Source: an archaeon (lineage in GTDB: Archaea; Iainarchaeota; Iainarchaeia; CSSED10-239). Taken from it: a stretch of DNA of 64,000 nucleotides. The notes beneath the pieces were generated by a model. The model searched no databases. It was given only the letters and a program-made list of their open reading frames with translations, and was not told the DNA's origin. Every line of letters begins with the position of its first letter. Positions within the stretch are counted from its first letter, which is position 1. The stretch is taken from positions 434,001 through 498,000 of the forward strand of contig JAKQTP010000138.1 in assembly GCA_029563035.1 (NCBI GenBank). The letters run 5' to 3'. Shown one piece after another: positions 17,030-63,764 of this stretch. The position numbers and the translations under genes were made by a program.

Positions 17030-20000
17030 ATGGGATTAAAAGAATTCTATTATAAATTAGAAGATAAATATTTTGCAATGCTTGATAGGCTAGAGGAAAA
17101 GGGAATTAATTTATATAAACTAGTTGATCCTCTAGAAAAAAACGGAATACCAACCTTCCCTCTTTTTATAATTTTTAATCTTGCAATAATTGCTTTGATT
17201 ATCTTCTTATTACTCCCAGTTTTTGGAATAACAGGCGGACCACACGGAACAGCTGTTCAGTTTCTAGATGAAACAAACAACCCAATTGCAAACACTATCT
17301 TAAAAGTAAAACTAAACGGTCAATCCAAAACTCTAGAAACAGATACTGAAGGTTTTTTCTATTTTAAAGATTTAAGTAAAGATTCAACCTATATCTTAAA
17401 ATTAGCAGACACTAAATATTTATTTTCAGATAGAGAAGAATACACAATTGATCCAACCAAGAAATCGCAAGTAGTTCATCTAAAAGAAGGTGCATTTTCA
17501 ACCACAAAAACCATTTTGTTTAAAACACAATCAGGAGAAGCAATAACTTCTGAATTAAATGTAGAGTTTAGTTGTCTTGGAACAGACTATGAAAAAACAG
17601 TAATTGTTAAAGGCGGTTCTCACACGTTAGATGACATTCCAACAGATTGTGGTAGCTTAGATGTAACTGTAAAAAACAGAAGCGATTATGAAATAAATAT
17701 TCCAGCAACAGGCACAAGCGGAGAAATCATATTTAGTAGTTCTGTAAACTATGCTACATTATCAATAACAATAAAAGATAAAGACAAGGGAATTGTTCTA
17801 CCAGACATGTTAGTTTCTATTTATGATTTGACAGGAATAATGGTCGATAGCGGTCCAACAAATGCAAATGGTATTTTTACAACAGAGTTAGTTCAAGTTT
17901 CAAAGAGCTATAAAATATTAGTTTCTGATCCAAAAAATATTTATGCAGGAATAAATGATTTAGATTATATTAATAATGTTCAAACACCAGTAACAATTAC
18001 TACAGGAATAAATCAAAAAACATTAGAAGTAAAAAAAGATGTTGTAGGGTTTATAAAAGTAAGAGTAAAAAGCGATTCTGGATTATATCTAGAAGGTGTT
18101 TCAGTAAAATTATCAAAAGGAAGTTCAACAATTGATCTTAAAACAACAGATACTACAGGCCTTGTAGAGTTTGGAGTAAAAGAGAATGTAACCTATGTTT
18201 TATCTTTTGATAAAGAAGGTTATTTTGTTTACACTAACAGAAATGCAACAGTTTCTGAAAGTACAACAGAAGTTACTTTAAGAAGCATGAATGCAGAAAC
18301 AAAGACCAGTTTGTTGATTAGTGTAACAGATACAGAACTAAATCCATTAGAATATGCTACAGTAAAAATATGGGACGCATTAAATAACACAGTTGTTAAA
18401 ATTGTAACAACAGATGTAACAGGCAGAGTAATTGTTTCTAATCTAAGTGCTGATTCAACTTATTTTGCAGAAGCAATTGTAGGACCATTTACTGGCAAAA
18501 CAAATAATTTTGTTGTAGAGGAAAGAGAAGAAACTTCTGTCCCAATTTTAGTTTCAATTGGTTATGGTACTTATAATTTGACTATTTTAAATTCAGATGG
18601 ATCTCCAATTTCAAACGCAATAGTAAAGGCATATGATGCAAACACAAATAAAGAAATGACCGAAAAGCAAACAACCACAAATGAGACAGGCCTTGCAATT
18701 TTACCTATTAGAGCAGATAAAGAAGTGTATTTTGCTGTAATCACAGATGGCAATCCAATAATTACAAAAAGATATTCAGTAGAAGCAGAAAACATGACTA
18801 GTGACACAATAGTCATTCCTTCTTTTGCTTCAAGCTCTGCAAGCATAGAGTTTGTTGGTTACTTTTCAGATAAAGGCGAACAGTTGCCAGCTGTTAGTGC
18901 AGGTCAATCAGCAACTGCAAGATTTTTATTAAATGTTAATAGAAAATATTCTAAAGTTTTAGCACATATAAGAACAGGAGATGGGGAAACCTGTGGTAAT
19001 AGAACATATTCTGTAACTGAAGATTCAATATATATTAAGAAAATAAAATATGCAGGAAATAAAATGTATGGTTCTGTTGATTACACTCCTTGTGGTGGAG
19101 AGTCAAGAGATACCTCTTCAATAGTCCGCAAAGATGCCAAATGGTTTAATGTTATTTTAGATAACTCAATAGAGGGTTCTTATATTATTGATGCAGATAT
19201 TGTAGTTACTGACAACGCAATAACCGACCAATCTATATTTTACAGAGCAGAATATCAACAAGGTTCCGCGATATTAAGATTTCCAAGAGATGATGTTTTA
19301 GGAACAAGTTTAAGTTCCTCAACTAGACAAGCACTTTATGCTTATGCAAATAAGAAAATAATTTCTGTAGGCGATTCTTCAAGTTGTGAAAACGGCATTT
19401 GCTATGCTTTTACAATCAAAGACAAATCTACAGGCGCAGAAAAAAAAGTAATGGATAAGTTTACAGCAAAAGAAGGAACAGATTATCAACTTAATTTTAG
19501 ATTAAGTTTTGAAAGGCCAGCAACAGATGCAATTTTAGTTGTTTTGCCAACCGGTCAAACAATAGTATTAAACGAATACAACATAACTTCTGGTGGTGGC
19601 TTACCAATAAATGATACTGATTTTTCAAATATCAGTTTAGGAAATATAAATGCAAACGGCACAGTAAATGGTTCAATTGATTTAAGTGTAATTAATGACA
19701 TAACTGATGAATTAACATTTAATATTTATGCAAATAATGACATCATATTATCAAAGACAATACACTTTGATCTTAAGCCTTCAAAGAAAATGATAGTTGA
19801 TGTTGTTCCAAAAACAATGGTGCCATTTGTGCCAAATGTAGTAACTGTTGGAGTAACAGAAGAGTCAGGTGCCAAAGTAACAGATGCAATAGTTTTTATA
19901 AGAATAAATGGAAAAACAGTAGCAAACGGCAAGACAGACAGAGACGGAACATATTCTGTAATGTTGCCATCAACAGATATAAAAGACGAAGTGGAATTTA

Positions 20001-23000
20001 CTGTTAAAAAACAAAGCTATAGTACAGTTACAATAAAGCAAGTTGTTTCTGAAAATCTAATCGAATCAATACCTGAGAAATTAGATATACAATTAGATAT
20101 TTCAAAAGGCTATTCTCAAGATTCTGATTTGGTATTGGTAAATAATTCTATTTTGCCATTAACAATTATAGGCATGGAAACAAACATAAGGTCTGATTAT
20201 ATATCTCTGAAAAGTGATGCACAAGGCACAATTTTAGAACCAACAATCCATCAACAAATAAATGTTTCAACAAGATTAACAGAGAAAGGAATAGATCTAA
20301 TGACACAAAAAGTTATAGAGGGAGATCTTTTAGTAAAAGTTAGTGAGGCGACTCTTGCAAAGGTATGGATAATTAAAGTTCCAATAAAAGTAAGAATTAC
20401 ATTTGGTAATTCAGTAGATAATGTAGAATGCTTAGAAATTAACCCTCAGGAAACAACAATAAGGGTTGAAAATACAAATGATATAGAATATAATATTAAG
20501 ATTAAAAATAATTGTACAGTAGATGATGAACCAGTAAATGTTGGCAGAATTTATGTTGAATCAGACTATAAGAACACAAAGAAACTAGGAGATTATTATG
20601 TAGTGGTTTCTGGAAAAGAGCATAAATTATCACTTGATGAAAAAGTAGAAGTTGCAAACAGAATTGTAGCAGAAGAAACTGCAACAATAAAATTAATCTT
20701 TAGGCCAAACAAATCTGCAAAAAGCGGATTGTCAAATCCAATTATTATATTTTCATCAAATAGACCAAATGTAAATGGCGTAGATGTGATTGCATCACAG
20801 CATTTGCCTAATATAATATTAAACAATTATGTTAGCTGTATAGAAACACCAAGCTCTCTAATCACAGTTCCTTATTGTATGGGCTATGGTTATAGTCTAT
20901 TTGCTGGCGGAACAAACACCATGAATTTCAATCCTTATTTAATGGGTCAATATAATTATCAATATGCCGGCGTGGCTCCACAATCAATTAATCAAAGTTG
21001 GTTATCAGGTTCAACATATCCATCAAATATGCTTGGTTATCAAAGCGTATTAGGAACAGGAGTGCCATATACAGATTACAGAGAAAATACACCACAAGGA
21101 TATCCTAACTCTTTTGGATTTTCATCACACGGAATGTTCGGTTGTGAAAAAGCACAAATACAAATTAGAAACAATTGTTCTGAAGATTTAAGTTTACAAT
21201 TTAGCAATCTTGGTGGAGTAATAATCACCAATCCAGAAAATTCAGAAATGACATTAAAGAAAGGGACAAGTGGAATGTTAGGCGTGCAAGGCTCACAAGT
21301 TCTTGGACAATACAAGATTTCCGTAAACGCCAAGCCCGACGACGATGCAATTGAAGATTACACTTATGTTAAAGACATTGTTGTTTCTGTAAACAGGCCA
21401 GTTAGTATTTTGCCAGAAAACTGTATCAGTGTTGTTCCTACAGAGTTTGATTTCTCAGGAATAGATACGGTAGAGAGAAAATTAACAGTGATAAACTCTT
21501 GTTATGATATGGGCTATGCATTATCTGGTCTAAGCGTATTAAATGTAGATGATTTATTTGTTGGAGATATTCAATATTTCTATATTGGCGATGTTAATAA
21601 AGATTTAAAGCCAAAGAAGACATACAGGTATGTTGATGGCAAAACCACAGAAATAATGACTATTAAAGTAAGAAGAAATCCAGAAATTACAGAAAAGACA
21701 TTTAGACTTGATAGTGAAGACAATAATTCTGTTGCTAAGAAATTAACAGCATTAAGAAAAGATTACTATGATGTGGGCAAGGCCATAAATCTAACAGCAT
21801 TACTTGGAATAACCTATTCTAATCCAAGATTAGGAAAGGACGAAATGGAAGTTGAGATTACTTTGATAGATAAGCTTCAATGGCTAAGTTATGTTGATAG
21901 TCTTGTAGACACCAGTTCTGCTCTTGAAGGCCAAACAACCCCTGGTGGCACAACTCCTAGTGACACAACCCCAGGTACACAAGCCACATCATTAACAGAT
22001 TATTTCGTTGGTAGTGAAGCTCTAAATCCTGGCGAGTGTTATGATCCAAAAGGATTTAGAAAATACGGATTTACAGGAGAAGAGAATTTCAAGAAGTTTG
22101 GTTTTAATAGATTATTATTTACATATAATGATATAGATATAACCCATAACATTTGTGATTATGGAAGAGTATATTGTGATCAAGATCAATTAAGGATTGC
22201 GATATCTAAAAAAGCAGATTTATATAGTTCACACAGAACCTATCTATTAGATGGAGTATATTTCTTACTTGAAGGAAATAAGATTGCCGAGAATCCATAT
22301 CTATTAGATGAAAATCCATTAGATAAAGATGCAATAGAAGTCATTGTTGCAAGTCAATCATTTAATAATCGTGATCCTAACTCTATATTGCAAGCACTAA
22401 AGGCAGTAATAGGCAGAGTGCCTACTGATTTAAGGAAATTTACAATACTTGAAGCAAAGATTGGTGCAACAACTACAAGTGAACCAACTCCTGCAAACTT
22501 GTCTTCTGAGAAAATAAAAGAATATATGACAATATTAGGAGATAATGACTTTGCAAAGAATGTAAAGCAAGATGGAGATGTCTATCAAACAACAGTAGAT
22601 TCGTTCTTAAGAAGTGAGACAAAATTAGAGGCAAAGATTAATAATGCATCAACTACTCAACAAGAGCAAGCAATTATTGCTGAGTTCTTAAATCAATATC
22701 TAAACACTATGAGATTATATTATGGTGACACAATAAGCCCATTTATTATTAATGCTAAAACTTACGGGCCATTAAATTCAGGAACAACAAAAACAATATT
22801 TAGTGCTGTTCAGTTTATGAGTGGAGCATGGACTTTAACTTTAGATCCTGCTTCATCAGTAACAGAGATAGCAACACCTGGAACATACAGCATTGCATTA
22901 AAAAGCACAGCAAACAATAAACAACTAACATATACTGTTCAAAAAGTAAATTCTAATTTATTAGATTATTACAATAATAATGCAGGCTATAAAGCAAACA

Positions 23001-24376
23001 CATTCTTTACAAACCCTACAAATGCTTATTATTTCCATTACTTTGGTGTGCCATTTAAGATCGCAAAGACAGGATTGTCAAAAACTACACAAATTATTGA
23101 CAATTACAACAATGGCTGGGATGTAGTACAAGATGGTATAATATTAAAGGTTCCAAAGGATAATGTAATGATATCATTTAAAGATATAAGGCCATTACAA
23201 GTATTATCTTCAGGAGCTTATAAGATAGAATATATAGCAAACGGCAAATATTCTTCAAAAGACACTTCTGAGCTGAAAAATACATTGTTTATTTTCCAGA
23301 AAATAAATGAATCAACTAAAGGTGCTGACTATCAATTAAAGACCTCTTCAAACTTAGATATGAGGTTTAATATTGTTCCAACAACATTAAGTGCTACAAA
23401 GAACTTTACACATGTTTATGGAGTATTAAAGGACATAACAAGCTCTAGTAATTTCACAGCTGAAGAAACAAGTTCAGTACAAACAATGGTTAATGGCATC
23501 TCAAGCGAAAAAATGTGTTTCAATTTTAATAATGGATTTTATTTATGGTATAATCCTTTAAGAACATCATTTGGGGACACTACAAGTGTAACAACTAGTG
23601 AAAGCACAACATCAACATCCAATGCTACAGCGATTGCAATAGCAATAGCTACTGCAAGTGTTGGTCAGGGATCTTTAGATTCATCAACAATATCAACTAT
23701 GACCTCTAGTCAAATAGATGATGCAATAAATAAAACAACGAAATCATTATCTGATGCACAAAAACAATTAGCAAATGTAAATGCAGAAATTGTAGCTCTA
23801 GAAAAAAATAATCAAATAAGTTCTGATGCGAATAAGACAAAATTAGATCAACTACAAGAACAAAAAACAACTTTAGAAAATTTAATAAACCAATTAACTA
23901 AAGGAATAGATAATTTAAAGGCTGCAAAATCTAAATCTTCTGGAAAAGGTTCAATTAGTTCTAATACATCAAAATTAACAATATCTAGTGGAAAAGTACA
24001 AGTAAGCGCAGCTCTAACCGCGTTAGTTTCACCTCTATTTACGAGTAATGTCAGCGGAATAGTTGATGTTGCAAGTGGTAACATAAAATTAGATATGAGC
24101 GATAAAAAGCTAAGTGGAATAGTTAATTTAACCTCTGGCAACTTAAGTGGGGAGGTTACCGTATCGAATGCCAAAGTAGTGATAAATGGTAACACCGCAC
24201 AATTAAAATTCTTTGGTAAAGCAAGAGGCATTCCAGTAGAAGCACCAGGAACATTAAAAGTTTCTGGTAATCAAGGCGGTGTTGATGGAACATATAACAT
24301 TGTTTCTGGGCAAAAAATAGCATTAACTAAAACAGTTTTAACATTTAATAATTTAAATTTTACAAAAACAGCATAA
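17030..24376 (+). CDS. Giant anchored surface protein 2
   Basis: 2448 aa. A short N-terminus (MGLKEFYYKLEDKYF, then GINLYKLVDPLEKNGIP) leads to one membrane anchor (about 43-64). About six beta-sandwich repeats of carboxypeptidase-regulatory type follow (70-600; the second has a Cys pair), then the shared core domain (about 603-825, with CENGIC), Ig-like modules ending in NNC, and a Tyr/Gly/Asn/Gln-rich segment (about 1281-1370). A second set of Cys-paired modules comes next, then the C-terminal module that starts at CYDPKGF near 1665 and ends with MCFNFNNGFYLWYNP near 2170. This last module is also found alone in the secreted protein that starts at 32507. After it come a Thr/Ser linker, a coiled coil (about 2222-2300) homologous to one in giant 1, and a beta-rich tail with repeated SGIV-SGN units. 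A structural surface protein; no catalytic motif seen. Confidence 0.88.
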   Translation: MGLKEFYYKLEDKYFAMLDRLEEKGINLYKLVDPLEKNGIPTFPLFIIFNLAIIALIIFLLLPVFGITGGPHGTAVQFLDETNNPIANTILKVKLNGQSKTLETDTEGFFYFKDLSKDSTYILKLADTKYLFSDREEYTIDPTKKSQVVHLKEGAFSTTKTILFKTQSGEAITSELNVEFSCLGTDYEKTVIVKGGSHTLDDIPTDCGSLDVTVKNRSDYEINIPATGTSGEIIFSSSVNYATLSITIKDKDKGIVLPDMLVSIYDLTGIMVDSGPTNANGIFTTELVQVSKSYKILVSDPKNIYAGINDLDYINNVQTPVTITTGINQKTLEVKKDVVGFIKVRVKSDSGLYLEGVSVKLSKGSSTIDLKTTDTTGLVEFGVKENVTYVLSFDKEGYFVYTNRNATVSESTTEVTLRSMNAETKTSLLISVTDTELNPLEYATVKIWDALNNTVVKIVTTDVTGRVIVSNLSADSTYFAEAIVGPFTGKTNNFVVEEREETSVPILVSIGYGTYNLTILNSDGSPISNAIVKAYDANTNKEMTEKQTTTNETGLAILPIRADKEVYFAVITDGNPIITKRYSVEAENMTSDTIVIPSFASSSASIEFVGYFSDKGEQLPAVSAGQSATARFLLNVNRKYSKVLAHIRTGDGETCGNRTYSVTEDSIYIKKIKYAGNKMYGSVDYTPCGGESRDTSSIVRKDAKWFNVILDNSIEGSYIIDADIVVTDNAITDQSIFYRAEYQQGSAILRFPRDDVLGTSLSSSTRQALYAYANKKIISVGDSSSCENGICYAFTIKDKSTGAEKKVMDKFTAKEGTDYQLNFRLSFERPATDAILVVLPTGQTIVLNEYNITSGGGLPINDTDFSNISLGNINANGTVNGSIDLSVINDITDELTFNIYANNDIILSKTIHFDLKPSKKMIVDVVPKTMVPFVPNVVTVGVTEESGAKVTDAIVFIRINGKTVANGKTDRDGTYSVMLPSTDIKDEVEFTVKKQSYSTVTIKQVVSENLIESIPEKLDIQLDISKGYSQDSDLVLVNNSILPLTIIGMETNIRSDYISLKSDAQGTILEPTIHQQINVSTRLTEKGIDLMTQKVIEGDLLVKVSEATLAKVWIIKVPIKVRITFGNSVDNVECLEINPQETTIRVENTNDIEYNIKIKNNCTVDDEPVNVGRIYVESDYKNTKKLGDYYVVVSGKEHKLSLDEKVEVANRIVAEETATIKLIFRPNKSAKSGLSNPIIIFSSNRPNVNGVDVIASQHLPNIILNNYVSCIETPSSLITVPYCMGYGYSLFAGGTNTMNFNPYLMGQYNYQYAGVAPQSINQSWLSGSTYPSNMLGYQSVLGTGVPYTDYRENTPQGYPNSFGFSSHGMFGCEKAQIQIRNNCSEDLSLQFSNLGGVIITNPENSEMTLKKGTSGMLGVQGSQVLGQYKISVNAKPDDDAIEDYTYVKDIVVSVNRPVSILPENCISVVPTEFDFSGIDTVERKLTVINSCYDMGYALSGLSVLNVDDLFVGDIQYFYIGDVNKDLKPKKTYRYVDGKTTEIMTIKVRRNPEITEKTFRLDSEDNNSVAKKLTALRKDYYDVGKAINLTALLGITYSNPRLGKDEMEVEITLIDKLQWLSYVDSLVDTSSALEGQTTPGGTTPSDTTPGTQATSLTDYFVGSEALNPGECYDPKGFRKYGFTGEENFKKFGFNRLLFTYNDIDITHNICDYGRVYCDQDQLRIAISKKADLYSSHRTYLLDGVYFLLEGNKIAENPYLLDENPLDKDAIEVIVASQSFNNRDPNSILQALKAVIGRVPTDLRKFTILEAKIGATTTSEPTPANLSSEKIKEYMTILGDNDFAKNVKQDGDVYQTTVDSFLRSETKLEAKINNASTTQQEQAIIAEFLNQYLNTMRLYYGDTISPFIINAKTYGPLNSGTTKTIFSAVQFMSGAWTLTLDPASSVTEIATPGTYSIALKSTANNKQLTYTVQKVNSNLLDYYNNNAGYKANTFFTNPTNAYYFHYFGVPFKIAKTGLSKTTQIIDNYNNGWDVVQDGIILKVPKDNVMISFKDIRPLQVLSSGAYKIEYIANGKYSSKDTSELKNTLFIFQKINESTKGADYQLKTSSNLDMRFNIVPTTLSATKNFTHVYGVLKDITSSSNFTAEETSSVQTMVNGISSEKMCFNFNNGFYLWYNPLRTSFGDTTSVTTSESTTSTSNATAIAIAIATASVGQGSLDSSTISTMTSSQIDDAINKTTKSLSDAQKQLANVNAEIVALEKNNQISSDANKTKLDQLQEQKTTLENLINQLTKGIDNLKAAKSKSSGKGSISSNTSKLTISSGKVQVSAALTALVSPLFTSNVSGIVDVASGNIKLDMSDKKLSGIVNLTSGNLSGEVTVSNAKVVINGNTAQLKFFGKARGIPVEAPGTLKVSGNQGGVDGTYNIVSGQKIALTKTVLTFNNLNFTKTA

Positions 24377-24416
24377 ATATAATATAATATATGAAATTAA
24401 TATTAAAAAAAATTAA

Positions 24417-24420
24417 GGTG
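24417..24420 (+). promoter_or_regulatory. Ribosome-binding site GGTG of giant 3
   Basis: GGTG eight bases before ATG 24429, in a 52-base gap with no TATA box that stands out from the AT-rich background. Giant 3 is therefore probably cotranscribed with giant 2. Confidence 0.45.
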
Positions 24421-24428
24421 TAAAAAAT

Positions 24429-27400
24429 ATGGGATTTAAAAAAGTCTATTATTCAGTAGAAAATAAATGGTATGATTTTGTTGAAAGAACAAGATTATAT
24501 AAAGTAACGGACAAGATCGACAAATTTATGCCATCTCTTATTTTCTTTATACTTCTTATAATAATGATAATTGCTGGAATATTTTTATTATTGCCTGTGA
24601 TTAAAGGAACAGGAGATATAGAATTAACCTTTAAAGTAATGGACGAATATGATGATCCTATCCCATTAGCACCTGTATTAGTCACAACGTCTGAAGATAA
24701 TTATAATCTTAGAACTAATGAAAATGGCCTAACTTCAAAAATCAGATTGCCATATAATACTGAATATATGGTGGATATTGATTACGCAGGAAGTGATTAT
24801 GAACCATATAGTAAGAATTTTGTTGCAGAAGAAGCTGGTGAAATAAATATTTATTTGTTCAGCATACCTGAAGAAATAACATCAACTTATTATTTTACGG
24901 TAGTAGATAGTCAAACAAAAATGCAAATAAACAAATCTGGTAGAATAGAATTTATGTGTAGTAATTCTAATGCTTTGCCACCAGATACCTTGAATTTTAC
25001 GTCTGGTAATATTAAGGTTACTGCAGATAGTGATTGCCAATTAAAAGCAAAATCAATAATGATAGAAGGCTATGTAACTAGAAACGATGTTTTAATAACA
25101 CAAGATATAGGAACTATCGAATTCTTGCCTAGTGAACCAATTGAATTTGAGGCAACATATCCTGTTTATATTTCGGTTCTTGGAGAAGATGGAGATCCAC
25201 TTACAGGAATGAGAGCAGAACTATATAGTAATGGTGTGGCTGTATTTGGAAAAAGCTGTACAACAACAAGTGGGTCTTGTACAATATTAAGTGTTGATGC
25301 AGGAAATTATATTTTGAAAATAACAGACACAAGAGCTGTTCCAGAATATGGGTTAGTTGAAGAATCAATTTCTGTTTCAAACATTACTTCAAAAACAATA
25401 AATATGACAAAAACAATTGCAGGGTATATTCAAGTAAAAGTTAAGAAAACAAATAACCAAGCAATAGAAAATGCAGAAGTAAAATTAAAATATGGAGATA
25501 CAATAATTTCAAGTGGGCACACTACAAATTCCAATGGTGTTGTAAATGTCCCTGTTTATGATTTGAGTAAAACTTACAGGGTAGTGGCAACAAAAGAGGG
25601 GTATTTGGTTGGTTCTGCAAGTAACATTACAGCTTCAGAAGACATTCCAACAAGCCCAACAGTTACAATTACTTTACAGCAAATAACCCCACAAACAGCA
25701 GCGACAGTAAAAGTAAGAGTAGTAGATAGTGTTACTGTAAAAGGCTTTAGTCATGCACAGGTTGTTCTTTATGATTCTACTACTGGATTTTTAACAGACT
25801 ATGATTCTCAGATTACAAATTCAGATGGTAATTGTACATTTAGAGTAACCTCAGGCACATATTATGCAAAAGCATTTAGGGGCGCTTCTGAAGGAGTAAG
25901 TGAGGAATTTGAAGTTGTAATTGATAGCTCAACAGAAGAAGTAAATGTAATAATACCAATAGAAGTGGTTAGGACATCACTTAATATTACTGTTGTTGAC
26001 CATTATGGCGAACCAGTGCCAAGAGCTAATATTTTGATATTTGATAAATTTAATTCAAGAAGAACAGTTTGGGGTGGAGATTTAGCAAGCCTAGATGGTA
26101 CATTTTTAATACCAGACTTAGTTTCTGATTCTGAAGTTTATGCTGTAATTTCTGATATTGCAGATAATCTTGGTGCTACTCAATCCGAGTATATATACCT
26201 AAAGAGCAATATAACAAACGAGTTAAAAGTAACTTTATATCCTAAATTAACAAGTTTACAAAAACCTGAAATTAAGTTTTTAGGTTTCTTTAATGATGCT
26301 GGAGAGAAACTAAAAGGTTATTTAAGATCTGGTGCAGAATACAAAGCCAGATTTTTATTATTAATACCACAAGATAGAGATGGCAGGGACGAATTTGAAG
26401 AAGTTGGTGCTGTTATAAGGACTGGCTCTATTAGTTCTGTTGCAAGCCCATATATGGAGAATGATAGCATATATATCAAATCTATAAATTTACCAAATGC
26501 AGAAGTCACAAAATACACTCAATATAGCTCAGAAGATGGCTATGACGGCATAGATGATGTTGATACCTTGACTGAAGGAGATTCCAAGTGGGCAAAGATT
26601 TTGTTTAATACAATCTATGGCTCTAATTATGCAAATGCTTATACCATAATGGCAAACATAAAGATAAAAGATACTGCAGTTTATGGCGAAGGGGTTGCAA
26701 TCAATTATTTAGGTTATGGTTATACAGAAAACAACAGATATGAGATTGACCCTATTGATGATACCTCTAGCAATTATATAGAATATAAAACACACAAAAC
26801 AGAGAATTTCAATATTGGCGAAGAACAAGCATGTTCTGATGATTTCTGTTTTAATCTAAATATCATTAATCTTGATGAGGACTTAAGAGAAGATGTTGTG
26901 GACAACTACAATGCTGCTCCAAATCAACATTATAAGTTAAGGTTTGGTTTAATCAATAATGATGAAGAAAAATTATACAATATAAATTCAAGATTATTAA
27001 TTAAAAATGAAGACAAGGGCCTTAAGTTTAGCAGCATTAAGATTACTCAGCCAAATGGGCAAGTCTTGACAAAGACAGCAGGCGATAATGAGTATGAGCA
27101 TAATATTTCCATAACCCAATTTAATCCACATACTAAGATATTGGGAGAAGTTGATTTCATACCAATATTAAAAGGAGACAGAATATTTAGCTTAACATTT
27201 ATTTCTGATCAAAAAGTAATATTTACAAAGCAAGTAGCTATACATGTGCTTTCTGATAAAACATTTGCAGTAAAAATCACACCAAAGACAATACCATCAG
27301 GAAAAAACTTTAATCTTCAGGTTGAGGTTAAAGATGCTATCACAAATATAGAGGTTGATAAAAAGGTATTTGTTAAAGTAAAAGACAGATTTAAAAAAGA

Positions 27401-29438: not shown

Positions 29439-29454
29439 ATATTTAATAATTAAA

Positions 29455-29458
29455 GGTG
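29455..29458 (+). promoter_or_regulatory. Ribosome-binding site GGTG that decides the next start
   Basis: GGTG contains the GTG codon at 29456 that would otherwise lengthen the next ORF by four residues. The same AAGGTGTA context, followed by an ATG 8-9 bases on, occurs before giant 3 at 24415, so the true start is ATG 29468. Confidence 0.6.
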
Positions 29459-29467
29459 TATGAAAAA

Positions 29468-32410: not shown

Positions 32411-32411
32411 A

Positions 32412-32433
32412 TTCTTCTTTTTCTTTTCTTCTT
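32412..32433 (+). terminator. T-rich tract after the 29468 gene
   Basis: A pyrimidine-only, T-rich run directly after the TAA, typical of archaeal gene ends; no stem. The 70 bases that follow hold only weak TATA-like sequence, so partial read-through to the next gene is possible. Confidence 0.4.
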
Positions 32434-32506
32434 AACAGATAAGTAAATAAATATTTATGTTTACTAATTTTATGAATAATAAAATAACTGAAAAAAGGAA
32501 ACAACT

Positions 32507-34834: not shown

Positions 34835-34851
34835 TAAAAAAGGGAAAAATA

Positions 34852-36768
34852 ATGAGATTTAAAAAAACAACAATTGTTGCTATAAGCTTAATATTTATAT
34901 TTTGTTTGCAATTCACTTTTGCATGGTCACCAGGATATTTGCAAGCAGATAATTTTGGAAATATAATGGGCGGTGCACCATGGTTTTCAGGCCAAACTGC
35001 TTTTTATGAATGGGATAAATTCGATCCTGCTCAAAAATATGCAGCAAGTATGGTATATAGGGGTCTTGATAATAGGAAAATAATTGCTTGCGAAGAAACA
35101 ACATCACAATGCTATGTAGTTGAAGGAGATAAAAGAACAGAAACAAACTATAGAAACACCCCACGAGTCAATAACACAACCAATAACACAACCAATAATA
35201 GTAGGGGGCCTGTAAATTATACGAGAGTAGATTATTTTACCCAAGATTGTATTGATGTAGGTTTTATTAAAGTTAGTGGTTATCCATTCACTTACAAATG
35301 TACAGATGACAAAACAGGTTATTATGTTTGTTATAAAGATCAAAAATCAGGTCATGCTATTGAACCAAACCCATATCCATTTTCAAAACCTTTAGAAACA
35401 AACAGATTAAGAAAAGCAATTTGTGATTTGAGAACACCAGATATAGAAGAAACACCTGTAGATACTACGAGAGAAAATACTACAGAAGAAACACTTGACA
35501 ATAGCAATACAATTTCAGATGCAGTATTAGCTCCAAGTTTAATTGAAAAGGTTGGATTTGTTGCAGTTAATTCAGAAACAGGCACAAGTGTTTTCCCAAT
35601 CAAGTATGTAGATAAAACAAATATAGAGGTTCCTCATTTTGTAATCAATTCAGAACTTTTAACCGCATATATAGGTAGAGATATAAAAATAGAAATGCAA
35701 TTAGATGAAAATGGTTTTAATTTTAATGAAAATATTTATATGTTAATAGCAAATGAAGAAAATTATGATAACATAATTCCAGAAATCAATAAATTTGTAA
35801 GTACAAACAATTCAGAATACTCTTACTATCAAGGAGAAACTACAGAAGTAATTCCTTATTATAATGTTTCTTGTAATTGTAAATACCGAAAAACAGCAGA
35901 TTCTGAAATTAAATATTTCCCAATGTCTATAACATTTGCAAACTTAAATTTGATTAATGGAGAATTAGATGCGACTTCAAAAAAATCAGTAAATAATTCT
36001 TGTGTTAATGCATGCGAAGTAAATCAAAAAGAAGTTAAAAATAATGCACCTGGTCTTTATGAGTATGATTTAGGGGATTATGAATTGTTCTTGCCAGAGA
36101 CTAGAGAAACAGTAATAAATTATAAATTAACTCAACCAAAAATGGACAAAATAAAATTTAAATTAAATGGCAATTTAGTTCAGTTTAAAATTGAGCCAAA
36201 CAGTCCTTACAAGAAATTTGTAGTTGTGTTTTTACAAAAATCAGATAAGAAACTAAATATCGCTTATGCAAACATCTTTATTCTAACTAATGATGAGATT
36301 TTAAGTTACAGTCATTGTGAATTAAACAGAAAAGTTCTAAATTATTTTTGCAGACCTGGTTTAGATTCTAGATGTGAAGTAATAAAGAACTGTTATAATG
36401 GCTATCATTTAAATTATGAAGATATAGATTTGACCAGCTATGTCAGTTCAGGAACAAGCGGGTCGCCAACCACACCACAATTACCAAACGATAATGAACA
36501 ACCACAACAAGATGTCCCTAATTTAAATGAGGGCGCTGGCAAATATTATTCTACAAGAAACAATACAAAGGATGCTTGTAGTAATGCAAATCTAACTACA
36601 AATCAATGGGGTTGTGTATGTATTATACAACAAAGTGGTGCAAAAAGAGTTGTTCCTGCTAAATGTACATCTAATTATGGATTAGTATTATATGGAACAC
36701 CAGACAGAGGCAAAGTCCCTACAGCTTACCAGTTTTGCTATAATGAGCCATCTACTAAATGTAGATGA
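34852..36768 (+). CDS. Secreted partner carrying the Cys-rich tail of giant 3
   Basis: 638 aa with a Sec signal peptide (1-24, ending QFTFA), then WSPGYLQADNFG and other aromatic stretches. A short NNTTNNTTNNS segment (about 107-117) and nearby NYT give closely packed N-glycosylation sequons. A Thr/Glu-rich linker (about 200-225) leads to a beta-rich middle with Cys pairs, and a Pro/Gln/Asn linker (about 535-560) precedes the tail. The last 75 residues, with NQWGCVCIIQQSGAKRVV and then AKCTSNYGLVLYG, match the Cys-rich end of giant 3. An AGGGA site lies nine bases before the start; the gap to the previous gene is only 17 bases, so the two are cotranscribed. No known family recognised. Confidence 0.83.
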   Translation: MRFKKTTIVAISLIFIFCLQFTFAWSPGYLQADNFGNIMGGAPWFSGQTAFYEWDKFDPAQKYAASMVYRGLDNRKIIACEETTSQCYVVEGDKRTETNYRNTPRVNNTTNNTTNNSRGPVNYTRVDYFTQDCIDVGFIKVSGYPFTYKCTDDKTGYYVCYKDQKSGHAIEPNPYPFSKPLETNRLRKAICDLRTPDIEETPVDTTRENTTEETLDNSNTISDAVLAPSLIEKVGFVAVNSETGTSVFPIKYVDKTNIEVPHFVINSELLTAYIGRDIKIEMQLDENGFNFNENIYMLIANEENYDNIIPEINKFVSTNNSEYSYYQGETTEVIPYYNVSCNCKYRKTADSEIKYFPMSITFANLNLINGELDATSKKSVNNSCVNACEVNQKEVKNNAPGLYEYDLGDYELFLPETRETVINYKLTQPKMDKIKFKLNGNLVQFKIEPNSPYKKFVVVFLQKSDKKLNIAYANIFILTNDEILSYSHCELNRKVLNYFCRPGLDSRCEVIKNCYNGYHLNYEDIDLTSYVSSGTSGSPTTPQLPNDNEQPQQDVPNLNEGAGKYYSTRNNTKDACSNANLTTNQWGCVCIIQQSGAKRVVPAKCTSNYGLVLYGTPDRGKVPTAYQFCYNEPSTKCR

Positions 36769-36800
36769 TTCTTTTTCTTTTTCATTAACTTTTTAACTTT
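36769..36800 (+). terminator. T-rich tract after the 34852 gene
   Basis: Three T-rich runs directly after the TGA. Together with the TATA-like element at 36810 this marks the boundary of a transcription unit before giant 4. Confidence 0.4.
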
Positions 36801-36809
36801 ACAGATACA

Positions 36810-36817
36810 TTTAAATA
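36810..36817 (+). promoter_or_regulatory. TATA-like element before giant 4
   Basis: TTTAAATA, 66 bases before ATG 36876, preceded by ACAGATACA. Weaker than the TTTATAAA type seen elsewhere. Confidence 0.35.
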
Positions 36818-36875
36818 CCTTATTTTCTTTAATATAAATATATTTTAGATATATATTTATAGGATGTGTAAGAAA

Positions 36876-39800
36876 ATGTCATTTGCTTTAAAATACCAGG
36901 AATTTTTAGATAAAATAAACAACAGAGTACCAATCAAATGGTTAACAAAGCCAATTGATAAAATACATCCGCTAGCATCTTTTTTTCTTTTTATAATTTT
37001 CGTAATTGTTGTGTTGTTGCTTATATTTAAGCCATTTGGATTATCTGGAGAAAGAACACAAGCAATATTCTTCACAATTGGTCTTGCAGATGACGGTGGA
37101 GAAATCTTAAGAAATTTTGAGTTTCAATTAAAAGATAAAGATAAGGACGTTACTCAAAATTACAGAACTGGTAATAATGGTCAATTTTCTTTAGAACTAG
37201 ATAAATATGGTAGCTATTCTGTTGTTGTTGATAAAGCAGGCTATAAGTATTTTGAAGAAGATATTGATTTAAGTAAAACCAGACAAAACTTCACTATATT
37301 GATTTTTAATTTACCAAATAAACAATCAAAGACCTTGACATTTGTTGGTGCAAATGGTCAGAAAATTTCTGAAAATCTAAATGTAACAATTACTTGCCAA
37401 GATGGAACAACAATTGAGCCAACATCTTCAACAGTAACAAACGGTACTGCTAATTTTGATGTTCCAGTTTCATGTACAAACATGGTTGCAACAGCAATCG
37501 GAATAAATTATTCTGGCAGTGGTATTCCAATCAACCAAACAACAGGTGTTGTTAATGTCCCGCCAAAAGCAGCAGTAACAGGAACTGGAAGAGCAACAAT
37601 AAGAGTTAAGAGTGGTACAAATTATCTTGATGGAATTACTTTGAGGATATATGCTATGGAAGATGGAATTAACCCTGTTGTTTCAGGCCAAACAACAATG
37701 GGCGGTAAATCTTTTGCAAATATCGAGATTGGAGAATACAAGGTTATTGCAACAGATGATTCTTTAAGATATGAATCTGCAGAAAGCACATTTACTATAA
37801 CAAAAGACACGGAAACACAACTGAGTGTTGAGATGTCTGCAATTAATGGAGGAGGCAATCCAGGAGATACTGAAACAAACATAGAGACAAGAGACATAAC
37901 AGTAATTGCTAAAGATTCTGATACAGGTGTAGATTTTAATTCTAGTGCTTTAGCACAAGTGTTTTTAATTACTGACATAAATGGCAGTTTGCAGACAGTA
38001 GACACTAAAAGTTATGAAGGAACAAGCGTTTCTTTTAGAATAGATAAATCAAAAAATTATTCATTAACAGTAAGAGCAACAGGCTATCTTGCAACAACTA
38101 AAGATATAACTCCAAACGCAAACAGCTATATTTTCAATTTAGAAAAAGAAACCATAAGTAATGTTTCAGACATTAATGTTACTGTTCTTGATGAAGAAAA
38201 TCTCCCAGTAATTGGCGCAACATTAATTATCTATAACGGAGATAATGAATTCCAAGATACCAGATATGATTCTTTGGTTACTGACGAGTTTGGAAAGGTT
38301 AATTTTGAAAGCATAGCCCAAGGCAAATATTTCATAAAGCTAAGAAAAGCAAATGTTGTTTCTTCATCTCAAAAATTCACTCACACTCCGCCAACAGACA
38401 CAAACATGTCAATGACAATAAATGTTGGAACTGGAACAATAAGATTTAATATTAAAAATATTAATGAAGAAACAATAAGCTTTGCAAACATCAAACTATA
38501 TAGCCAAATAGGTGAGGAGATTGGAACCGATCAAGCAACACAGAACGGAGAATATTCAAAAACTATAAAAGCAGACAAGATACTTTATGCAAAGATCTCA
38601 AAAGAAGGCTATTATGATTATTATACTGAATTGATACCAATAATTAGCGGAGAAACGATAACAAAAGACATTAAACTAATAAGAGTGGGAACAGTAAGCA
38701 CTCTAACTGCAGACTTTGTTGGTTTGTTTAATGAGCAAAACCAGAAAGTTGAATATTTGGCTCAAAATTCAAAGTTTTATTTTAAGTTTAGATTAATTAA
38801 TCCAACAGAAGGGACTGTTGGATTTAGGTTCTTGGCAGGAGATAAAGAAACTGCAGAAGAAGACATTATCCATATCAGAACAATGTATGACACAAAGGCA
38901 AATGTTAGCTATTACAGTAATACTAACTTAACAATAGTTACTCCAGATATTCGTGCAAAAGTAATTGATGCAAAGTTTGTAAATGCATCTGTTGGTGTTT
39001 ATGAACTATTAGTTCCTGTTGGAACTGTTCAAGCTAACAGAGGCCAAGCAGCTCCAATTTATTATTCTGTATTTACAAGCACTCCACCAATACTTGATAA
39101 TCTTAATAGCCAAAAAGTTTACTATATTGATACAGAAGAAATCTGTTCTGAAACTTTTTGTTTATCAGGACAATATGTTGATGTTTCAGAAGATATTGTT
39201 TTTGATTTAGAGGCTGTTAATAATTTAGTAGTAAACAAAACATATAATCTAAAGTATGTTTTAACTAATGCAAAATCAAATGTTTATAATAACAATAGAC
39301 TATTAATAGCAAATGTTGAAAACACAACAGAGATGTTTGCAAACGCCATTGATATTTTAAGTTATAATATAACAGGTGGAAGGTTTGAAGATTCAGGCTC
39401 TGCAGATAACCAGTTAAGAAACAAGATACCATTTACTTCTGATTATCTAAATATCCCACAAATAAACGTTTATGACAAGATAGAAATTAACACAACCATT
39501 AAGCCAGCAGTTCTTGGAACTTCCAGATTCCAAAACAAGATTATTTCTAATCAATCTGTTGTTTATAATGAGTTTATGACTTTTAATGTGTCTCAGCAAT
39601 ATCCTTTTACTATAACTTATGAGCCAAAAAATATTGTTCCAAACAAGCCATTTGATCTTACAGTTGTTGCAATTGATGAGTCAGGCTTGCCAGTATCTGG
39701 TGCTCTTGTCAATATCTATCAAAGAAGAGCAAACAACCAACAGATAAAGATAACAAGTGGAACAATAAGAACAAATGATTATGGTAAGGCAATAATACCA

Positions 39801-42800
39801 ATGCCAGTTTTAAGAACAGGCGAAAGAATAATCATTAATTTAGAGAAGAGTGGATATTTTGCAGAGTCTGTAGAATTTACTGTTGAAGAAAATATCATTT
39901 CCCTTAAACAGGACAACACAAAGATAACAGACAAGGCTCCATTTACGATTAATATAAATAAAACAAATCCAGATGGAACAGAAAGGGTATTAACAATAAT
40001 AAATAATACTGATTATCCTTTACAATTAAAGCAATTTAAAGATGATAGCTTTAATTTCAGATATTCTAATTATCTGAATATTCCAAAATTACAGCAATAT
40101 CTAAATAGTCAGGTTGCTAATATTGTAATTCCAGCAAACGGAGAAGAAAATCTAAGAATAAAGATTGCAACTTCTCAAGATGCTGAAGAACTAATTCAAA
40201 CCCTAAATATTACTGGTAACATTATTGGTTATGTTTCAGTAGATAACTCACAAGCAGAATATCCTTTTAATATTCCAATAAGCCTAAAGGTATCTGTTGG
40301 TGAAGGAGTAGAAGAAGATGATTGTTTAGTAATCCAAGGTGCAAACAACCCTTGGAAGCAAGTAGTAAGCAGTAATGATTCTGTATCTTTTAGCTTTGAT
40401 ATACAAAACAATTGTGTAGTCAAAGGCACAGAAGGTCAGAGTTTGCCATTAGATACAATAAGAGCAAAGATTGTTAATTCCAAAGATATGTTTGGAAGTT
40501 ATAATTTGACTGTTGATGGAAAAACAATAACTCTTTCAGAAGGCAGTTACACAACCATATTAAAGAACTTGTCTCCTGGAGGGCATCATGCTGTTCTTAC
40601 ATATTATTCTCAAGAAAAGAAATTTGGGGATGTAGAAACAAAGATTTACATTAATGGGCAAGTTAAGACTAACGATGGTCTAAAATATGTAAATACCACA
40701 AGAGATGTTGCATTTACAACAAACATAGCAATAAGAAAGATACAAGACTGTATTGAGTTCTATGACGGAAGTAAGAAGATAAACGATATGTTTGTTATTA
40801 CTAAAGAAACAAACACTGGCGAAGTTAAAGAACTCACTGTAAAGAACAACTGTGCAGATCTTGGAAGATTTAGATTAAACTTCTGTGAAGATATTGAAAC
40901 AAATCCAAATGCCTTTGAAGGTTGTGGAAATATAAAGTATGATAATCTAGAAGGGTTTAATGATAACGAGTTAAGATTTAAATTTGGAGAAAGTTCTCTT
41001 GTTGCTGGCATTAAAAAGCCAGAAGTTCCTGGAGGTTATCTAGTGCCTGTAAAAATAGCGATATTAAACAGCAACGACAAGGCGATAACGACAATCTACA
41101 AGAACCTAAAGATAAATGTTCATTCATCAAAAGGCCTTTACATGGAAGATCCATTTATTGAGGTAGACAAGAATAGCAGTGGGGCATACAACAGTGCGAC
41201 AGTAAAATTATTAAACCACGACATCAACACCACCCCTTGGGATTATGCTATGAAGAAAGTCGGGGACACAGGATTTAGTAAATATATGTCAAAGAATTAT
41301 GATTATCAGAATCCAGGATATGAAAATATAAAATGGAGTAAATTTGATGATTTAGTTAACACAGATGTTAAAGGAATAAATACTGGTCAAAGTATAGCAA
41401 TAGGAACTAGTGTTTTAGCTGTTGAAACAGGTATAATTGCAATATTTGCTATGTTATCAAAAACCGCGACTTTTGTTGGTATTATAACGGCGGGAGCGGG
41501 CCCTTTATCAATCGTAGCATGGACTGCAGTAGGATTAGCATTTATAGGGGGGGCGGTAGCTCACACATTTTATTCTGTTTATAAATATATTCCAGAATAT
41601 CAATTTGCAAATGTAGATCAAATATACGCAATGCCAAGAATAGAAAGTGATAAAGAAATTATAATTTCTTCAACAGATGAACAATTAGAATATATAAATG
41701 TATTTGATATAACAGGCGCAAGATATGTTACTTATTTAAAGGGCAAAGGAGACGGATACGGCAAATTAGTAAAAAATAAAACACTATCTATGGCTGTGCC
41801 AAATTGTAATGAATTAGAACATAAACAACAATTTTTTAATTATGGTTATGTTTCAGAGGCAAAAAATTGTAATGTAGATTTTAGCGAGATAAAAAAAGAG
41901 TCTGATAAAATAACATATAGTGTAGAATGTCAAGGTGGTTGGCCAAGAAAAAAGATAAAACTGACAACACACACATATTCTTTTTGTAAATATGATGAAA
42001 TTATTTGGCCAGAACAATCAGGTATCAAGCCATTGTCTTTTACAATAAGTGATGTCAATGATGTAAATAAATTATCTCTTGGAGATAATTTGTATAAAAC
42101 AATTACTTTCTATCCAACTCTTGATGATCAAATTGAAGGACAAGATCCTGCATTTGAGGGTGCTAAAGAGATTGGTAAATTCAGGTTTGCATTTATCTCT
42201 AAACAATATCCTGAGAGATTGCCAATAAGTATTGATCTGGAAGATTGTATTACTGATTCTGGCAGGTCAGGAAAGACAGGAAAAGATGCTCTCCCAAATG
42301 TTTCATTTAATTGGGATTGGAAAGATGATAAAGATATAGATAAATGTAGTGATGGAAATTATTGTGATGCTACACAGTTGTCTCAAGTAATTGTAAGTAG
42401 ATTAATCAATGCAGATGCTTTAATTACAAAAAATAAAAATAATATATCCTGCCCAAGAAGTAATGCACAAGTGATTGATCAAGCAACAGCAGGAACATAT
42501 AATCTTACTTCATCAATACCACAATGGTCAGGAGAGGTTCCAGCAAACTATACCGGAATTGACCAAGTAAGATTTGGAACAGATGGCAATTTAACAAAAA
42601 TACAAGTATCTGTTCAAAATAGAACAACTGCTCAACAGACAGGAAGCATAAGAATAAGATTTGGAGAATATGTCCCAAAGTATTATTCAAATTATGATTC
42701 TGTTGGTAACTTGGTAGATACAACAATAACTTCAGCAACACCTGAACAAAATATACAGATAATGATACCAACAGGAGAAGACGATTCCATAGATTATACT

Positions 42801-44345
42801 TTCACATATGGAACAGAAGACCAACCAATAATTGGAAATAACATACCATTAACAGTAATCTATAGTGGCACAAACGCATATTCAGGAGAACCAAGCTACA
42901 CATATTACCAAACAGACATCAATGCAAGCATATACCAAGCATCTGTAGGCACAGGCTGTCAAGTTCCAGCAACAACAGCACAGTTTAATGGTGTGGACTA
43001 TATAGATATGTGGTTTGATGCTAATGTTTATCCAAATAATGTTGTAAACTCATGGGATAAAGAAACAATTAACAAGCTAAAGAACTATTTAGAATTTGAT
43101 GCATATCTGATAACAGACAACTACAATCAACAATTCTTAAATGACTTTGATAAGGCACATGGCGGTAAGGCTTCAGGAAGTAATGTAATAGCAGAAAGCT
43201 GGTTTAGTGCTCCAGGTGCATATCAAAACGGAATTTATTCACCATTATTTAGAGATCACACAAGCTTTTCTCAAAAATATACTGCAGACTCACAAAACGG
43301 AGTAAATATAATAGTCCCTGGAAAATACAGAGTAAGAATTGATTTAGTATATAATAATGAAAATTGGAGACTAACAAAAGATAATGGAGAGATAGATGCT
43401 AAAGTTGTTGTGACATTTACATATATCAGAGGCCCAGAAAATGATAGTGTATTCTACAGAATGCCATTTGATGGCTTTGTAGGTATGCAAAATAGCAATA
43501 GCTATTCAAGACAAAACTATGGGCTTGGATATATAGGGGACGTTATTACAATAACTCGCTTAGATAATAAAGAGCTAAAAACAGAATACTTGGGTAGCTC
43601 AAATCCAAAGAAATACCTAAATGTACAACATAATAAAGACTTCTTTAAAATAAATAGTAATGTAGAAACAAGAGGAAACTTATTTACTATTAAAGAAAAG
43701 ACAGACAACCAGATAGAGATGATCTATTCTCCAAGTGTTGCAAATCCAGTGATTATGAAGGTAAAGAAAACAAACCTATATCCATTTTCAGCATACTATC
43801 AATTAAAGAACGACAAGACAGGAGAAATAATGTTTGGAGGAAATAGTTTAGGTATATGGACAGGAGTAAGTAAAGAAAATCCAAGAAATCTAGACTTTTC
43901 GGGAGACTATGTGTTCTTTAAGTTTAATAACTTCTATGATAGGCAATCAGAACCAGATGAAAGAATGAGTAATTCCTATGCTATTGATTGGGAAGACATA
44001 GCAAGAACAGGAACAGTTTATTTAAGAACAATATTCTATACTCCATATGATTCTGATAATAATCCAATAAAATATAATTTAATAAGTAAAACAAGAGGCA
44101 ATCAAGAAAGCGTATTGTTTATGAATGACTATAATCAAGATATGTCAACCATAACACTAGGAAATAGCAACAATAAAATATATAGCCTAGAAGAGCTATT
44201 TAAAAAAGTAGAAAACAAAGAAGTCTGTGTTGTTAATTCAGATAATGGAAAGACAACTGAATTCTATTGGAACCCTAAGACGATATATGAAACCGATGGC
44301 AATATGTTTATAGGAGAAGGATTAGTTGAAGGAATTGCAAACTAA
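36876..44345 (+). CDS. Giant anchored surface protein 4
   Basis: About 2489 aa. I prefer ATG 36876 to the ATG at 36864: the later start gives MSFALKYQEF, which lines up with the MGLK/MGFK starts of giants 2 and 3 and leaves AGGATGTG (36861-36868) as ribosome-binding site. Anchor at about 33-51; carboxypeptidase-regulatory-like repeats about 55-600; core domain about 606-805, with CSETFCLS; then Ig-like modules with ITNKNNC-like ends. A hydrophobic, Gly/Ala-rich hairpin (about 1505-1565) uses GC-richer codons than its surroundings. The remaining 900 residues match the secreted protein starting at 29468, including NYCDATQLSQ (about 1828-1837), VPGKYRVRI, FYRMPFDGFVG near 2193 and a final CVVNSDNG with FYWNPK. 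Structural surface protein by architecture. Confidence 0.88.
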   Translation: MSFALKYQEFLDKINNRVPIKWLTKPIDKIHPLASFFLFIIFVIVVLLLIFKPFGLSGERTQAIFFTIGLADDGGEILRNFEFQLKDKDKDVTQNYRTGNNGQFSLELDKYGSYSVVVDKAGYKYFEEDIDLSKTRQNFTILIFNLPNKQSKTLTFVGANGQKISENLNVTITCQDGTTIEPTSSTVTNGTANFDVPVSCTNMVATAIGINYSGSGIPINQTTGVVNVPPKAAVTGTGRATIRVKSGTNYLDGITLRIYAMEDGINPVVSGQTTMGGKSFANIEIGEYKVIATDDSLRYESAESTFTITKDTETQLSVEMSAINGGGNPGDTETNIETRDITVIAKDSDTGVDFNSSALAQVFLITDINGSLQTVDTKSYEGTSVSFRIDKSKNYSLTVRATGYLATTKDITPNANSYIFNLEKETISNVSDINVTVLDEENLPVIGATLIIYNGDNEFQDTRYDSLVTDEFGKVNFESIAQGKYFIKLRKANVVSSSQKFTHTPPTDTNMSMTINVGTGTIRFNIKNINEETISFANIKLYSQIGEEIGTDQATQNGEYSKTIKADKILYAKISKEGYYDYYTELIPIISGETITKDIKLIRVGTVSTLTADFVGLFNEQNQKVEYLAQNSKFYFKFRLINPTEGTVGFRFLAGDKETAEEDIIHIRTMYDTKANVSYYSNTNLTIVTPDIRAKVIDAKFVNASVGVYELLVPVGTVQANRGQAAPIYYSVFTSTPPILDNLNSQKVYYIDTEEICSETFCLSGQYVDVSEDIVFDLEAVNNLVVNKTYNLKYVLTNAKSNVYNNNRLLIANVENTTEMFANAIDILSYNITGGRFEDSGSADNQLRNKIPFTSDYLNIPQINVYDKIEINTTIKPAVLGTSRFQNKIISNQSVVYNEFMTFNVSQQYPFTITYEPKNIVPNKPFDLTVVAIDESGLPVSGALVNIYQRRANNQQIKITSGTIRTNDYGKAIIPMPVLRTGERIIINLEKSGYFAESVEFTVEENIISLKQDNTKITDKAPFTININKTNPDGTERVLTIINNTDYPLQLKQFKDDSFNFRYSNYLNIPKLQQYLNSQVANIVIPANGEENLRIKIATSQDAEELIQTLNITGNIIGYVSVDNSQAEYPFNIPISLKVSVGEGVEEDDCLVIQGANNPWKQVVSSNDSVSFSFDIQNNCVVKGTEGQSLPLDTIRAKIVNSKDMFGSYNLTVDGKTITLSEGSYTTILKNLSPGGHHAVLTYYSQEKKFGDVETKIYINGQVKTNDGLKYVNTTRDVAFTTNIAIRKIQDCIEFYDGSKKINDMFVITKETNTGEVKELTVKNNCADLGRFRLNFCEDIETNPNAFEGCGNIKYDNLEGFNDNELRFKFGESSLVAGIKKPEVPGGYLVPVKIAILNSNDKAITTIYKNLKINVHSSKGLYMEDPFIEVDKNSSGAYNSATVKLLNHDINTTPWDYAMKKVGDTGFSKYMSKNYDYQNPGYENIKWSKFDDLVNTDVKGINTGQSIAIGTSVLAVETGIIAIFAMLSKTATFVGIITAGAGPLSIVAWTAVGLAFIGGAVAHTFYSVYKYIPEYQFANVDQIYAMPRIESDKEIIISSTDEQLEYINVFDITGARYVTYLKGKGDGYGKLVKNKTLSMAVPNCNELEHKQQFFNYGYVSEAKNCNVDFSEIKKESDKITYSVECQGGWPRKKIKLTTHTYSFCKYDEIIWPEQSGIKPLSFTISDVNDVNKLSLGDNLYKTITFYPTLDDQIEGQDPAFEGAKEIGKFRFAFISKQYPERLPISIDLEDCITDSGRSGKTGKDALPNVSFNWDWKDDKDIDKCSDGNYCDATQLSQVIVSRLINADALITKNKNNISCPRSNAQVIDQATAGTYNLTSSIPQWSGEVPANYTGIDQVRFGTDGNLTKIQVSVQNRTTAQQTGSIRIRFGEYVPKYYSNYDSVGNLVDTTITSATPEQNIQIMIPTGEDDSIDYTFTYGTEDQPIIGNNIPLTVIYSGTNAYSGEPSYTYYQTDINASIYQASVGTGCQVPATTAQFNGVDYIDMWFDANVYPNNVVNSWDKETINKLKNYLEFDAYLITDNYNQQFLNDFDKAHGGKASGSNVIAESWFSAPGAYQNGIYSPLFRDHTSFSQKYTADSQNGVNIIVPGKYRVRIDLVYNNENWRLTKDNGEIDAKVVVTFTYIRGPENDSVFYRMPFDGFVGMQNSNSYSRQNYGLGYIGDVITITRLDNKELKTEYLGSSNPKKYLNVQHNKDFFKINSNVETRGNLFTIKEKTDNQIEMIYSPSVANPVIMKVKKTNLYPFSAYYQLKNDKTGEIMFGGNSLGIWTGVSKENPRNLDFSGDYVFFKFNNFYDRQSEPDERMSNSYAIDWEDIARTGTVYLRTIFYTPYDSDNNPIKYNLISKTRGNQESVLFMNDYNQDMSTITLGNSNNKIYSLEELFKKVENKEVCVVNSDNGKTTEFYWNPKTIYETDGNMFIGEGLVEGIAN

Positions 44346-63365: not shown

Positions 63366-63764
63366 ATGGATTTTACAATATTGGGTTTTTTTAGCGACAT
63401 GTCATTTTTATTAAAATTAGCATTTATAATATTTATAATCATATTTGTAAGAGAAAGAATAACCAAAAATTGGCTAGCAATTACAGCAATTGTAATTGTT
63501 TGTATTGTTTTAGTATTTTTCTACTGGCCAGTATTTGGATCTATATATGTCATATATATATTAATTACAATAGGTATTGGCTCTGTTCTTGTAGATACCT
63601 TCTTTGTAACTATGCAAGAGGGTCATGGAGGCGGCACAAGTCCTGAAGATATGCTTGGAAATCAAAGTCAAGGTTATCGAATGAGTGATGAAGGATCAGA
63701 AGTAGATATGGAACAATTGTTTGCTGCTAGACGTCAAGCCATGAGTAGAATGAGGAGAAGATAA
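63366..63764 (+). CDS. Small membrane protein with basic tail
   Basis: 132 aa with three likely membrane segments (about 12-27, 34-52 and 56-78), the first two separated by a basic RERITKN turn. The remaining 50 residues are polar: a GGGTS linker, an acidic part and a final very basic AARRQAMSRMRRR. Not recognised. It starts 12 bases after giant 6 and its stop overlaps the next ATG (TAATG), so it belongs to the same unit. Small membrane proteins of this sort commonly form inner parts of secretion or pilus machines, but no motif proves this here. Confidence 0.75.
   Translation: MDFTILGFFSDMSFLLKLAFIIFIIIFVRERITKNWLAITAIVIVCIVLVFFYWPVFGSIYVIYILITIGIGSVLVDTFFVTMQEGHGGGTSPEDMLGNQSQGYRMSDEGSEVDMEQLFAARRQAMSRMRRR

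Follow-up and report, generated by a model that had tools for sequence, protein, structure and literature searches.

In the stretch of DNA analysed here (64,000 nucleotides, called the window below), two adjacent genes probably encode an anchored stalk, giant 3, and a separately secreted head, the 29468 protein, which would rejoin as a two-subunit surface protein (a probability of roughly 0.7). The 29468 protein would most likely be the head that belongs to giant 3, encoded apart from its stalk. This assignment relies more on where the genes lie, and on the head being either fused or separate, than on the tree of the heads. In most classifiable relatives, one gene encodes a giant surface protein that would comprise an N-terminal membrane anchor, a stalk of Ig-like and carboxypeptidase-regulatory-like domains, a variable linker and a Cys-containing head, and this fused form would be the older state. 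In the lineage of Forterrea and Ainarchaeum the gene appears to have been divided within the linker, the downstream half being equipped with a separate start, a ribosome-binding site and a putative signal peptide, and the upstream half ending in a Cys-rich tail. The head would then be secreted separately and join the anchored stalk outside the cell, and the rebuilt two-subunit protein would probably serve contact with other cells.

By the Rosetta-stone argument, proteins that are fused in some relatives are expected to keep working together where they are separate. Since stalk and head are naturally fused in relatives, a two-subunit stalk-head protein is favoured here, and the two parts would be expected to bind. 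A concrete pair can thus be named, the giant 3 stalk and the 29468 head, whose binding is testable because natural fusions predict contact. A plausible misreading is also corrected, as the 29468 protein probably does not pair with the giant that it most resembles within the window. The free members of this head family have no Pfam or NCBIfam match, and little is known about cell contacts in the uncultured archaea that encode them.

Giants of the window and the detached head

Six giants begin at positions 5664, 17030, 24429, 36864, 46921 and 56817, and the long genes studied all lie on the + strand. Pfam scans of the giants returned chiefly carboxypeptidase-regulatory-like and other Ig-like domains (giants 2, 4, 5 and 6 were scanned against Pfam only). 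An N-terminal anchor, a stalk and a related head are combined in giants 2, 4, 5 and 6, and giant 3 is a stalk without a head. Giant 2 (17030..24376, + strand, 2448 aa) consists of an N-terminal anchor helix, a stalk, a divergent head B (21863..23563, + strand, residues 1612-2178; recognized by phmmer and BLAST matches to the 32507 protein and by HHalign to the giant-2 ends of relatives) and about 270 residues after it. Giant 4 (36864..44345, + strand, 2493 aa) carries an anchor, a stalk, a hydrophobic hairpin and head A (42120..44288, + strand, residues 1753-2475; assigned by sequence comparison and the head tree). The heads of giant 5 (51358..52857, + strand) and giant 6 (61764..63350, + strand) belong by alignment and HHalign (E 1e-16) to the family of the 29468 and giant-4 heads and are without the Ig-like insert; BLAST detects giant 6 alone (E 3e-4). 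HHalign found no head of this family in giant 1, whose end (14300-15014) shows a Cys...His pattern that we take to be reminiscent of CHAP-type amidases, with no CHAP-type amidase match in Pfam.

Several other features accompany the giants. Ahead of the head, giant 4 (residues ~1505-1570) and its relatives have a strongly hydrophobic hairpin, with a mean hydropathy of up to 3.28 (in G011), which could insert into a membrane. The N-termini of giants 2 and 3 have in common a short motif preceding the anchor helix, YY..E.K.Y.F...., which also occurs in the stalks of other genomes, is less clear in giants 1 and 4, and might act in sorting on the cytoplasmic side. Giants 1 and 2 are separated by a gene for a 602-aa protein (15064-16872) with the N-terminus GFTLFTALISLLLV, presumably type IV pilin-like; its orthologues precede giant 2 in G001, G002, G005, G007 and G009. 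Signal-bearing proteins are encoded between giants 4, 5 and 6 (44834-46906, 53149-54552 and 54567-56810), the 44834 and 54567 proteins being paralogous (E 2e-10). After the last giant comes a small membrane protein with three hydrophobic segments (63366-63764), which is found likewise in 7 of the 9 relatives compared and has no match in Pfam or NCBIfam.

Giant 3 (24429..29438, + strand, 1669 aa) is read as an anchored headless stalk on the basis of orthologous stalk-head fusions and synteny. Behind a PDPNK-repeat linker it ends in a Cys-rich tail (29196..29435, + strand, residues 1590-1669) similar to that of the 34852 protein. From its end to the likely start of the next gene, ATG 29468, there are 29 nt, with a Shine-Dalgarno-like AGGTGT in front of the ATG and no T-run in the junction. 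A GTG at 29456 is the less likely start, since it sits inside the AGGTGT site and most aligned homologues begin at MKSN or equivalent. T-rich runs are located 3' of the head gene and of the 34852 gene; giant 3 and the head may therefore share a transcript, and 32507 and 34852 look like a separate pair.

The protein starting at 29468 (29468..32410, + strand, 980 aa) is the probable detached, secreted head of giant 3. It begins at a Gly-rich helical hairpin (29591..29719, + strand; located from AlphaFold secondary structure, mostly at pLDDT <50, together with hydropathy and alignment) similar to one preceding the fused heads, and an Ig-like beta-sandwich is inserted further along (30614..31021, + strand, residues 387-522 when numbered from 29456), a candidate for an Ig-like domain of transglutaminase or GH2 type. 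The tails of headless giant 3 proteins differ between the window, Forterrea and G014. In these comparisons the gene break is located in the linker. Of 26 positions that do not vary among 17 giant heads (including one from L004 in a broken frame), the free head retains 24 and other members of its family 23 or 24, so that the free head is not a degenerate copy.

Fused and split forms in related genomes

Residues 901-1500 of giant 3, from the stalk, were searched against 87 genomes of the phylum, and contig, strand and frame length were compared with those of head matches. At E <= 1e-40 there were 52 rows in 51 genomes (the next row lies at 4.6e-29). The giant-3-type stalk is distinct from giant 4 with one overlap among the 52 rows, C45 of G003, which matches the stalk at 2e-41, carries a giant-4-type head and was excluded from the fused count. 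Giant-3 stalk and homologous head lie in one frame, on a common contig and strand, in at least 33 of the 51 genomes; a headless stalk with a separate head was found in 2 (Forterrea G001 and Ainarchaeum G014). Sixteen of the 51 are unclear. These include G013, where the free head type is present and the giant-3 stalk is truncated at a contig edge, three genomes with stalk and head in neighbouring frames (G012, G034 and G044), which may be gene breaks or assembly errors, and 12 stalk-bearing genomes left unclassified. The head family as a whole occurs in at least 69 of the 87 genomes.

The fused stalk-linker-head giant 3 was seen directly in six of nine genomes compared (G002, G005, G007, G009, G010 and G011). 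The fused forms of other Diapherotrites are like the window in stalk type, in having a homologous head and, where seen, in gene order; they differ in that stalk and head make a single frame (1532-3255 aa among the matches listed, the shortest being contig-cut), which is split in the window. Their linker is long and variable, so the head would not be rigidly docked even in fused relatives. An order of giant 1, pilin-like protein, giant 2, giant 3, giant 4 and small membrane protein is conserved wholly or partly in relatives. Forterrea and, in pieces, G014 show giant 2, giant 3, head and giant 4 in this order, and in both, as in the window, a signal-bearing head comes immediately after the headless stalk. 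In the window and in these relatives the head is encoded directly 3' of the stalk of giant 3 and 5' of giant 4, and the head gene directly precedes giant 4 in G013 and G014.

The same arrangement bears on a different possibility, in which the free heads are released effectors working away from the stalk and giant 3, lacking a head, serves a different purpose by way of its Cys-rich tail. The heads have signal-peptide-like segments of their own, the giant 3 tail varies as described above, and the 32507 and 34852 proteins are further separately secreted proteins kept here. Yet stalk and head are adjacent in Forterrea, G014 and the window despite a head identity of ~40-48% (the G014 head being in fragments), and a similar two-gene design recurs at other loci. 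We therefore regard release as unlikely and prefer the two-subunit explanation.

Relationships of the heads and the neighbouring secreted proteins

A sequence-only reading of this DNA had taken the 32507, 34852 and 29468 proteins for free copies of the end modules of giants 2, 3 and 4, respectively, acting as one-to-one partners, caps or decoys. Its account of the layout holds: the three genes are grouped between giants 3 and 4 on the + strand, where it had placed them, and their products begin with signal-peptide-like segments (as judged by hydropathy and eye). Each named pair is indeed similar, and homologues of all three (P0003, P0011 and P0032), each from a 13,232-base contig, probably co-occur in close kin. 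Where relatives of the free proteins carry a name, it is Candidatus ainarchaeum, Diapherotrites or Forterrea, or in some cases just archaeon, which places the window in a DPANN archaeon of that lineage. None of the three proteins matched a family in Pfam and NCBIfam at E <= 0.01.

For the 29468 protein, the similarity to giant 4 (26% over 796 aa, E 1e-42) is genuine but appears to be that of paralogues, with a better HHalign match elsewhere. The 29468 family scores 781 bits against the fused giant-3 heads of relatives, 705 bits against relatives' giant-4 heads and 427 against the giant-4 heads of its own lineage. In a tree of 55 rows, a branch sets apart each of three groups, the free heads (100/100), the fused giant-3 heads (98/94) and the giant-4 heads (99/98), and giant 4 of the window and of Forterrea are placed among the other giant-4 heads. 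Outgroups were added because three groups alone cannot show which two are closest. Free and giant-3 heads then grouped together at 84/69 (with giant-2 and giant-5/6 heads as outgroup) and at 92/86 (with heads of a second locus type included, the midpoint root lying between these and the rest). The rooted trees thus lend moderate support to this grouping, and a clade of free heads with all giant-4 heads is not rejected (p-AU 0.22). A free copy of its own giant-4 head is a candidate that we rejected for the 29468 protein, since a clade with the giant-4 heads of its own lineage is rejected (p-AU 0.031, lnL 12.75 lower). By HHalign and the trees, its best match accordingly lies outside the pair in which it had been put. 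Two records titled Chloroflexi and Thaumarchaeota (L015 and L016) have giants near those of a Diapherotrites genome (end branches ~0.06-0.29) and are probably misbinned contigs.

The 32507 protein (32507..34834, + strand, 775 aa), a putatively secreted relative of head B, resembles giant 2 as proposed (32% over 546 aa, E 6e-67; the match spans residues 238-772 of 775), but the module is internal in giant 2 (1612-2178 of 2448) and not its C-terminal end. Together with six homologues it forms a clade separate from giant 2 (98/99), and the tree marks it as one more free protein akin to the head of giant 2. The same head superfamily takes in the giant-2 ends of relatives (HHalign E 2e-31 to giant-3 heads and 5e-9 to head B). 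A head-B search matched 25 of the 87 genomes and gave no clear free copy; the most free-looking of the short frames, the only one examined individually, lies in G014 and is a contig-cut protein at the place of giant 2. The 34852 protein (34852..36768, + strand, 638 aa) is likewise predicted to be secreted. Its match to giant 3 is real (39% over 51 aa, E 4e-7; 61 columns in HHalign), but by these alignments the likeness is limited to the short C-terminal Cys-rich tail of ~60 residues. The CVC of this tail is kept in all of seven further homologues, one of them chimaera-like and matched over 34%. A search for the 34852 family, run without a positive control, matched 0 of the 87 genomes.

A set of one-to-one partners, caps or decoys is quite improbable on these data. 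Apart from the HHalign and AU results for the 29468 protein and the few residues common to giant 3 and 34852, the head gene directly before giant 4 in G013 and G014 speaks against it, as do the 87 genomes searched for free head-B copies and 34852 relatives. Capping or decoy function is further at odds with a giant 3 that has no head to cap and with the conserved positions of the free head. Outside close kin neither 32507 nor 34852 was found, so that pairing one to one is no general rule, and in related genomes the modules mostly stand without a free partner. The two outcomes that the sequence-only reading had itself named as counting against it, modules usually partnerless in relatives and best matches outside the pairs, were each found in part. 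What survives is subunit pairing with a changed assignment, in which the 29468 protein goes with giant 3 directly upstream.

A sequencing or assembly artefact, that is, a frame break in a fused gene, can hardly explain the split: broken frames exist in relatives (e.g. G012 C13, whose second half has no signal segment), but the window's head has its own start, Shine-Dalgarno-like site and signal segment, 21 of 22 homologues among the matches listed measure 963-1024 aa (in a search that admitted proteins of 0.55-1.75x the query length, where fused forms above ~1720 aa could not appear), and independent genomes contradict it, the Forterrea chromosome, titled complete, being split likewise.

Separate heads at other loci and known systems

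Six further loci were picked for their head frames of 677-1004 aa, so that 6 of 6 is no frequency. In all six the head gene encodes a hydrophobic segment at the N-terminus, and upstream of it five show a clear stalk that is anchored and headless. Like giant 3 and the 29468 protein, these second-locus cassettes combine an anchored headless stalk with a separate head gene; they differ in the branch of the head family, in their place and in the extra gene between the two. In four of them (G008, G009, G029 and G030) this gene encodes one secreted protein of 568-587 aa, and in G065 a product of 234 aa. L104 has a fragmented stalk and also a second head frame, which is without an N-terminal hydrophobic segment, and G012 has two more stalk-head gene pairs. 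As a 99/99 branch splits the second-locus heads from the 29468 group, separate heads probably arose more than once. Their presence at a second locus type is also a point against the fused form as the ancestral one.

Somewhat speculatively, Diapherotrites might possess a widespread modular stalk-and-head system, in which heads repeatedly switch between covalent and secreted forms and a stalk could take up, outside the cell, either the free head that belongs to it or a related one (e.g. the 29468 and 32507 proteins). Large surface proteins of comparable description are known from other organisms. Ca. Huberarchaeum crystalense, also a DPANN archaeon, has large membrane-anchored, partly Cys-rich surface proteins for which host contact is proposed (PMC6792436); the portion of that account available to us does not mention split heads, unlike the giant 3 and 29468 pair of the window, and the likeness is one of description. 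In bacteria, Giant1-5 of Apilactobacillus kunkeei are reported to be very large extracellular proteins, Giant1-4 having an N-terminal beta-solenoid (PMC12863079). They too are likened by description, and they are encoded by consecutive genes, as are the giants of the window.
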